NCBI GenBank assembly: GCA_003214525.1
Contig: QCLN01000005.1
Location: forward strand, 1-64,000
Direction of reading: 5' to 3'
Length of the DNA: 64,000 nt
DNA from: Pelagibacteraceae bacterium AG-414-M23
Lineage (GTDB): Bacteria; Pseudomonadota; Alphaproteobacteria; Pelagibacterales; Pelagibacteraceae
Of the stretch, positions 17,061 through 36,627 are shown one piece after another. How positions within the stretch are numbered: the first letter of the stretch is position 1; the number at the start of each line of letters is the position of its first letter. The notes beneath the pieces were generated by a model. It was not told where the DNA came from, made no database searches, and worked only from the letters and a program-made list of their open reading frames with translations. The position numbers and the translations under genes are program-made.

Positions 17061-17167
17061 ATTTTTACACAGCAGCAATCGCACCAGTGGGCGAACCCTC
17101 GCAGACTGGTGTCGATCTCTTTGTTGCCAAAGACACCGCAAAATGCTGTATTTGCGGAAATTGCGAT
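17061..17167 (-). ncRNA. structured 5' leader of ffh, candidate cis-regulatory RNA
   Basis: GC-rich island in an AT-rich genome with several perfect hairpins (17136-17157, 17082-17111, 17119-17132) and a loop-to-3' pairing (17144-17151 with 17067-17074) just before the ffh start. A cis-regulatory motif before ffh has been reported in Candidatus Pelagibacter ubique. Confidence 0.8.
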
Positions 17168-35204: not shown

Positions 35205-35435
35205 TTAAATTTTTGCGCTTGAATTTTTTAAAATCTCTTTATAAATCTCTTGACTAATAGCAACGTTATATTTTTCTTCAGTAAGCGCTGAAAAATTTTC
35301 TTCAAATCTTTTTTGCTCTTTTTTCAATTGTAATTTTATAATGAAGTATAAACTTGAAAAACTAATTAGTGTAAAAGCGAAAGCAGACCACACGTATGCT
35401 CCATATCCATTCATTGAGATAAGATCTGATATCAT
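35205..35435 (-). CDS. ccmD: heme exporter protein CcmD
   Basis: Small protein, GYGAYVWSAFAFTLI; position between ccmC and ccmE. Confidence 0.88.
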   Translation of the reverse strand: MISDLISMNGYGAYVWSAFAFTLISFSSLYFIIKLQLKKEQKRFEENFSALTEEKYNVAISQEIYKEILKNSSAKI

Positions 35436-36139
35436 AGTCGTTTTAATCCTTTATTTTTAACTTTTATCAATTCTGTATTATATTTCATCAAAAAAATCAA
35501 AAAAGAGAATAGAGCAAATGCCGCAGTCATTATTATTAATGGTATTAACATTGAGGAATCTATTGCCGATTTTTCAGTTAGACTAATCGATGCTGGTTGA
35601 TGAAGTGTATTCCACCAATCAACTGAAAATTTTATAATTGGTATATTTATTGCCCCAATAATTGCAATTATTGATGATATTTTGTTTGATTTATCTTGGT
35701 CTTCAAAAATTCTAAAAGTCAAAATATATAGAACATAAAGAATAAATAATATTAACATAGAAGTAATTCTCGCATCCCATGCCCACCATGTTCCCCAAGT
35801 AGGTTTTCCCCAAATTGAACCTGTTACTAAAGCTATTAAAGTAAACAACATGCCTGATGGAGCTAAGCTTTTTGAAATCAAAATTAAATTTTTATTTTTA
35901 AATAAAAAAACTGAAAGAGATAATATTGCTATTAAAGAAAATATACCTACAGAAATCCAGGCAGAAGGTACGTGAACATACATAATTCTTACAGAATCTT
36001 TCTGCAAATAATCCTCGGGTGATAAAAATAATGCTTCTAACAAACCAATGCTTAGAACTATAATAAAACAAAAAAAAATAATTTTTTGCAAATTAGAATT
36101 AATTTTAAAAATTCTATAAGGATTAAAATACTCAAACAT
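35432..36139 (-). CDS. ccmC: heme exporter protein CcmC
   Basis: MYVHVPSAWIS; GKPTWGTWWAWDARITSML; DWWNTLHQPASI. Confidence 0.97.
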   Translation of the reverse strand: MFEYFNPYRIFKINSNLQKIIFFCFIIVLSIGLLEALFLSPEDYLQKDSVRIMYVHVPSAWISVGIFSLIAILSLSVFLFKNKNLILISKSLAPSGMLFTLIALVTGSIWGKPTWGTWWAWDARITSMLILFILYVLYILTFRIFEDQDKSNKISSIIAIIGAINIPIIKFSVDWWNTLHQPASISLTEKSAIDSSMLIPLIIMTAAFALFSFLIFLMKYNTELIKVKNKGLKRL

Positions 36140-36179: not shown

Positions 36180-36240
36180 CACTTTGACCAAGAGTTCTGA
36201 GGGAGATAAATTGGGAATGAATGAACTCCTGATCAAAGTA
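36180..36240 (-). ncRNA. putative long hairpin RNA between hspQ and ccmC
   Basis: Minus strand: ACTTTGATCAGGAGTTC-[25 nt]-GAACTCTTGGTCAAAGT, a continuous 17-bp stem with two G.U pairs only when transcribed from the minus strand. Confidence 0.6.
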
Positions 36241-36306
36241 TAATCATAGTAAACTTAATGTTTGTCTAACTTTTGTATTAAATGTGTTTAAATATTGGCT
36301 TTTTAT

Positions 36307-36627
36307 TTAATTTGATGGCTTAAAGTAACCTGAACCTTTTTTTCCACTAAAAATCTCATTTATTAATGGATGTTGAATTGGTTCTCCAGAATCATCTGGT
36401 AATAAATTTTGTTCAGAAACATATGCTTCATATGTTATTTCCTCATTTTCTGCTAGGAGATGATAGAACGGCTGATCTTTTCTAGGTCTCACATTTTTAG
36501 GGATTGATTGATACCATTCTTCAGAGTTATTAAACTCAAAATCTACATCATAAATAACACCTCTAAAATCAAAGTGTCTATGTTTTACAACATCTCCTAT
36601 TGAAAATTTTGCTTTTTGAATTGGCAC
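36307..36627 (-). CDS. hspQ: heat shock protein HspQ
   Basis: KFSIGDVVKHRHFDFRGVIYDVDFEF; RPRKDQPFYHLLAENEE; YVSEQNLLPDDSGEPIQHP. Confidence 0.95.
   Translation of the reverse strand: MPIQKAKFSIGDVVKHRHFDFRGVIYDVDFEFNNSEEWYQSIPKNVRPRKDQPFYHLLAENEEITYEAYVSEQNLLPDDSGEPIQHPLINEIFSGKKGSGYFKPSN

Follow-up and report, generated by a model that had tools for sequence, protein, structure and literature searches.

Small RNAs with C-rich pairing motifs are described from several bacteria. AbcR1 and AbcR2 (alpha-r15) of the Rhizobiales target mRNAs through M1 (CUCCCA), a short C-rich motif located within a hairpin (PMC5461406). The CcsR/cuckoo RNAs of Rhodobacter and relatives lie in clusters behind a DUF1127 gene, have an RpoH promoter and are processed by RNase E (PMC10253847). 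LhrC of Listeria contains UCCC-type motifs, depends on a two-component response regulator and can dispense with Hfq in target regulation (PMC4132741). In SAR11, the survey of Meyer et al. (2009) yielded four well-supported and four weaker conserved intergenic RNA motifs, located before genes for ribosomal proteins S2 and S12, ffh and methionine biosynthesis genes, and also near rhtB, pntA, rnhB1 and SAR11_0636 (PMC2704228). Neither hspQ nor ccm occurs in the text of that survey, and the hairpin described below is not among the motifs given in that text (PMC2704228). The literature searched holds no report of a hairpin beside hspQ. The window, that is, the whole 64,000-nucleotide stretch analysed here, is SAR11 (Pelagibacter) DNA and also contains the known SAR11 ffh leader motif at 17074-17126 on the minus strand (Rfam RF01793, 51.6 bits).

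Few cells in the ocean are as abundant as SAR11 bacteria, which possess very few transcription factors. From its sequence, a hairpin between hspQ and ccmC looks like a small regulatory RNA that has a promoter to itself and is apparently unreported. The reading we find moderately probable is that of a single-copy Pelagibacteraceae sRNA that has its own promoter and whose loop seed would pair with G-rich ribosome-binding sites without Hfq.

A minus-strand hairpin behind hspQ

The earlier note had proposed a minus-strand hairpin with a 17-bp stem and a 25-nt loop, and its sequence, coordinates and structure prove correct (Table 1). The stem extends to 18 bp if a terminal U.G pair is counted. Folded against shuffled sequences, the minus-strand RNA reaches -23.1 kcal/mol (z -4.4), which none of 200 shuffles matches. 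The plus strand reaches only -15.2 kcal/mol (z -0.85), and 39 of 200 shuffles do as well.

Table 1. Features of the hairpin locus in the window
Feature	Coordinates	Strand	Basis or remarks
Hairpin RNA	36181..36239	minus	5' arm 36239-36223, loop 36222-36198, 3' arm 36197-36181
Conserved loop segment UAUCUCCCUC, putative seed, core CUCCCU	36199..36208	minus	(nearly) invariant in genus
Predicted -10 TACTAT (family consensus TAtAaT)	36246..36251	minus	position-locked 11 nt past block
Near-invariant 30-bp DNA block TTTAAACACATTTaataCAAAagTTAGACA, likely activator site over -35 region	36263..36292	minus	alignment and logo
hspQ (YccV-like), constant upstream neighbour	36307..36627	minus	Pfam PF08755, 3.5e-30
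ccmC, first ccm gene downstream	35432..36139	minus	Pfam PF01578, 8.2e-36

The same strand preference is evident among relatives. In 78 distinct sequences, a hand count over the inner 14 pairs gives about 167 G.U cells versus 4 non-pairs. On the opposite strand these G.U cells would be A.C mismatches, which identifies the minus-strand RNA as the molecule that folds. A functional minus-strand RNA had been suggested from the G.U wobbles of the window copy, and both the asymmetry of folding and the G.U excess in relatives sustain this suggestion. The window copy scores 68.3 bits with a covariance model and is the sole strong copy in a whole-genome search, which rules out a repeat or mobile element.

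Conservation and covariation

The order hspQ-hairpin-ccmC reappears in a DNA search that covered 100 related genomes. The hairpin is present at 100 of 100 Pelagibacter hspQ loci, including 80 further named Pelagibacteraceae loci fetched via hspQ. The covariance model gives about 249 strong hits, with about 271 genomes in the genus, by our own count from the hit table.

Covariation analysis of the hspQ-ccmC intergenic region, a check put forward in the earlier note, covered the same 78 distinct sequences. Pairing holds in 91.7% of cells, and 15 of the 18 stem pairs display two-sided changes. The covariation score is 0.410, versus 0.272 ± 0.008 for shuffled alignments and about 0.1 for slid controls. 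Poor pairing is confined to the three outermost pairs, at or before the predicted transcription start. A lack of conservation, or uncompensated changes in one arm, had been named as grounds for abandoning the hairpin; it is conserved, and its stem changes are compensated. Conserved and covarying in relatives, the hairpin is non-random and far from chance expectation. Its structure, strand and conservation, together with the position-locked -10 element described below, are established at the level of sequence.

Six further genera (g5 to g9 and g12) also carry a hairpin 3' of hspQ, with quite different stem sequences. All seven Pelagibacteraceae genera examined thus possess it, and their stems are unrelated but share a loop core. 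At every examined family-f1 locus with the hairpin, hspQ is the upstream gene. In family f2, hspQ runs straight into a coding region with no hairpin. Class-wide, hspQ loci contain few CTCCC matches and none in a comparable structure. The covariance model also gives low-scoring hits in f2 and several g8 genomes (L139-L147); these were set aside as apparent chance or coding matches. Judged from these sequences, the RNA appears to be restricted to the family Pelagibacteraceae and tied to hspQ, not to ccmC.

The loop

The C-rich loop, noticed earlier in the window alone, turns out to be a conserved feature across Pelagibacteraceae genera. The Pelagibacter loop retains (U)AUCUCCCUC, and elsewhere the CUCCCU core is kept. 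The segment ATCTCCCTC occurs in 101 of 143 distinct family sequences, and most of the remaining ones contain TACTCCCTC, AACTCCCTC or TTCTCCCTC. By genus, the C-rich core reads UUACUCCCUC in g8, UUCUCCCUC in g5, AAUCUCCCUU in g6 and UUAUCUCCCUU in g7.

At the g8 loci L168-L191, ACTTCTT is conserved in the loop, as is CTTC(A/C)C 3' of the hairpin, ahead of a TATTATAGTAGT box upstream of ccmC. One g8 genome (L177) has the loop motif altered to CUCACUC with the stem intact.

A predicted promoter upstream of the hairpin

An alignment of 57 diverse representatives yields the consensus AAACACAwTTnnnnCAAAnCTTnGACAnA, followed after an 11-nt gap from GACA by TAtAaT. Within the block, CA is invariant at three positions spaced 11 bp apart. 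The mean match to TATAAT at the locked position is 4.04 of 6, versus 3.12 for the best of 300 dinucleotide shuffles, and the TA of the -10 element is present in 50 of 56 representatives. The predicted transcription start lies at about 36239, at the base of the stem, in agreement with where pairing turns strict. With respect to the own-promoter criterion for a trans-acting sRNA, the locus thus offers a position-locked TATAAT, on sequence evidence only.

A sigma-70 -35 element at the GACA step was considered and rejected, as 11 nt to the -10 element is too short. The short spacing leads to the reading of the block as an activator site. OmpR/PhoB-type activators bind repeats so spaced, placed where a -35 element would be. 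The block is likely a site for an activator of this type, the 11-bp repeats being the clue to the regulator. A promoter-matrix scan of two near-complete genomes finds one high-scoring copy of the whole block per genome. Because the scan finds this site alone, no regulator can be named from a regulon.

The hairpin might instead belong to the 3' end of the hspQ mRNA, as a processed or stabilising structure and perhaps an ancestral terminator. It always lies behind hspQ, at a distance of 51-121 nt from the hspQ stop codon among the distinct sequences analysed, and 8-9 T follow the stem in a few genomes. However, the locked -10 element and the conserved block stand between hspQ and the hairpin, a terminator has no need of an invariant loop, and the U-tract is absent at most loci, so that this origin is very unlikely. 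A run of at least 5 T follows the stem in 11 of 143 distinct sequences, and none directly follows the window hairpin. As an intrinsic terminator has a U-run after its stem, the hairpin does not qualify as one, in line with the earlier remark that the window hairpin, having no U-tract, is not a textbook terminator. The want of a consistent terminator 3' of the hairpin among the 143 sequences also counts against a stand-alone sRNA, as it leaves the 3' end unexplained. At the locus, Rfam gives chance matches only, even at E<=10, and none at the gathering threshold in 17 relatives.

Other strong hairpins, very similar to one another, AATCTCTCCCAACttaGTTGGGGGAGATTTTTTT, recur near 477870 and 862109 of G012:C1 and near 434970 of G102:C1. 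These are terminator-like repeats that combine CUCCC with GGGAG.

Relation to ccmC

In nearly all genomes the next gene is ccmC, on the same strand and 2-59 nt from the predicted stem. The hairpin could therefore be the leader of the ccm operon, in which case a transcript starting at it would extend into ccmC, and either the whole hairpin or the loop would act in cis on ccm expression or mRNA decay. Besides this proximity, most loci have no terminator between the hairpin and ccmC, and the promoter is directed toward ccmC. Such a leader is nevertheless unlikely, for ccmC is not always the neighbour: genus g12 (L136) keeps hspQ and the hairpin with an unrelated gene in place of ccmC, which shows that ccmC is not essential to the hairpin locus. 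In addition, the linker is unconserved, nothing near ccmC is an obvious partner for the loop, and many ccmC genes have their own TATAAT at a leaderless distance. In L136, hspQ and the hairpin are followed by another reading frame and by a gene resembling lactate dehydrogenase.

In the window, TATAAA stands 5 nt ahead of the ccmC ATG. A TATAAT exactly 6 nt ahead of the ATG occurs in 6 of 64 representatives, versus 0.26 expected and a shuffle maximum of 2. Only this fixed position is significant; a general excess of near-TATAAT sequences before ccmC is not. From these sequences ccmC probably has its own promoter, and a TATAAT 6 nt from the ATG is fitting for a leaderless ccm mRNA. Among the three options raised in the earlier note, the locked promoter and the g12 locus without ccmC speak for a stand-alone sRNA, and the ccm leader is disfavoured.

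Proposed action and candidate targets

For the stand-alone sRNA, we infer transcription, regulator, pairing and repression as follows. An OmpR/PhoB-type regulator would probably occupy the 11-bp-spaced repeats and substitute for a -35 element. RNA polymerase would bind at TATAAT and start at the foot of the hairpin, so that minus-strand transcription would begin at a dedicated promoter located between hspQ and the gene that follows. The long stem would give a stable RNA that displays the loop CUCCCUC. This seed would pair with G-rich ribosome-binding sites, for instance GAGGGAG, and block ribosome entry. The pairing would be unaided by Hfq, which is apparently missing from these genomes, and the leading candidate target would be the mRNA of the light-driven pump proteorhodopsin.

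A Pfam model of Hfq finds no match in any of 31 Pelagibacterales genomes, while E. coli, Caulobacter and other controls are positive. Any pairing by the hspQ-side RNA would thus proceed unaided by Hfq, and a rigid hairpin with its seed in the loop suits this mode.

The earlier note had called for target prediction with the C-rich loop. Two Pelagibacter genomes, one near-complete and one 88% complete, were scanned with simple gene calls, and 946 orthologue pairs were ranked by loop-mRNA duplex energy around start codons in wide and narrow windows. Proteorhodopsin ranks first in both types of window. Its GAGGGAG site is perfectly complementary to CUCCCUC, and the predicted duplex with the loop has an energy of -14.9 kcal/mol in each of the two genomes. 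The 16S anti-Shine-Dalgarno tail, whose sequence we take from general knowledge, binds the same site more weakly (-10.4 and -8.9 kcal/mol). Both genomes show AGGGAGG at an ammonium transporter gene. A second ammonium transporter, a glutamine-synthetase (GS)-family enzyme and an HTH gene also rank high; for Amt, the GS-family gene and the HTH gene the pairing is weaker than for proteorhodopsin. The strongly pairing predicted targets are not enriched for exported or membrane proteins. A C-rich loop by its nature fits many Shine-Dalgarno sequences, which tempers any reading of these targets. Of the suggestion that the loop pairs with such sequences, the fit is confirmed and is best at proteorhodopsin; regulation by such pairing is putative.

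GAGGGAG precedes proteorhodopsin in 27 of 28 Pelagibacter genomes. It is also found in 8 of 8 g8 genomes, followed by different bases and at a constant 112 nt upstream of the Pfam match. In g5, g6, g7, g9, g12 and f2, no such site was found upstream of proteorhodopsin. The RNAs of g5, g6, g7, g9 and g12 retain the CUCCC core despite this absence, which counts against the target. One genome has AAGGGAG at the proteorhodopsin site and another combines the loop CUCCCUU with GAGGGAG; no compensation is seen. As the site is missing in other genera, proteorhodopsin is the leading candidate target and not an established one.

The control region upstream of proteorhodopsin in Pelagibacter (L336-L364) is conserved. 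It contains a perfect palindrome, TAGTTTATATAAACTA or TAGTTTAAATTTAAACTA, about 30-45 nt before the ATG, and a AAACTAAC element adjoining GAGGGAG.

The loop of a stand-alone RNA might bind a protein, as a decoy or sponge, instead of pairing with mRNAs. Its core is almost invariant although the candidate mRNA sites are not universal, and a C-rich loop might suit a single-strand-binding protein. No candidate protein is identified, however, and one motif per RNA would make a weak sponge, which renders a decoy decidedly unlikely. On the preferred reading of an mRNA-pairing sRNA, an RNA that is nearly universal, keeps its loop fixed and has a predicted promoter to itself would represent a concrete, testable SAR11 regulator and a possible handle on the tuning of proteorhodopsin or nitrogen uptake. 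A more specific version, in which an Hfq-independent, response-regulator-activated sRNA controls the translation of proteorhodopsin, and perhaps of ammonium transport, in SAR11, is possible but doubtful. If true, it would link an environmental signal to the light-driven energy supply of the cell via an sRNA acting on proteorhodopsin.

Comparison with known systems

The earlier note had likened the hairpin to alphaproteobacterial anti-Shine-Dalgarno sRNAs. Membership in these families does not hold up, given the lack of an Rfam match, a different anatomy and different neighbours. The AbcR RNAs are likewise alphaproteobacterial, have a short C-rich hairpin motif and resemble the SAR11 RNA in the proposed mode of action. 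AbcR RNAs, however, fold into several stem-loops, occur as sibling copies and carry GUUCCC as an additional motif between their hairpins. The SAR11 RNA is a single hairpin in a single copy, its loop reads CUCCCUC instead of CUCCCA, and neither another hairpin nor a conserved GUUCCC accompanies it. It also differs in having no Rfam match and in occurring in genomes without detected Hfq. The CcsR/cuckoo RNAs have C-rich loops and, like LhrC, also work in a way akin to that proposed for the SAR11 RNA. They too are hairpin sRNAs beside a stress-type gene, but the SAR11 neighbour is hspQ (PF08755) and not DUF1127, there is one strong copy with no tandem, and their promoter differs from the predicted promoter of the SAR11 RNA.

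LhrC is Gram-positive, has five copies, three motifs and a terminator, and is not homologous to the SAR11 RNA. The two are nevertheless alike in their UCCC motifs, and the Hfq independence and response-regulator control of LhrC match what is proposed for the SAR11 RNA, whose regulator is suggested by the 11-bp repeats alone. Like the motifs of Meyer et al. (2009), the hspQ-side hairpin is a conserved intergenic RNA candidate derived by comparison within SAR11.
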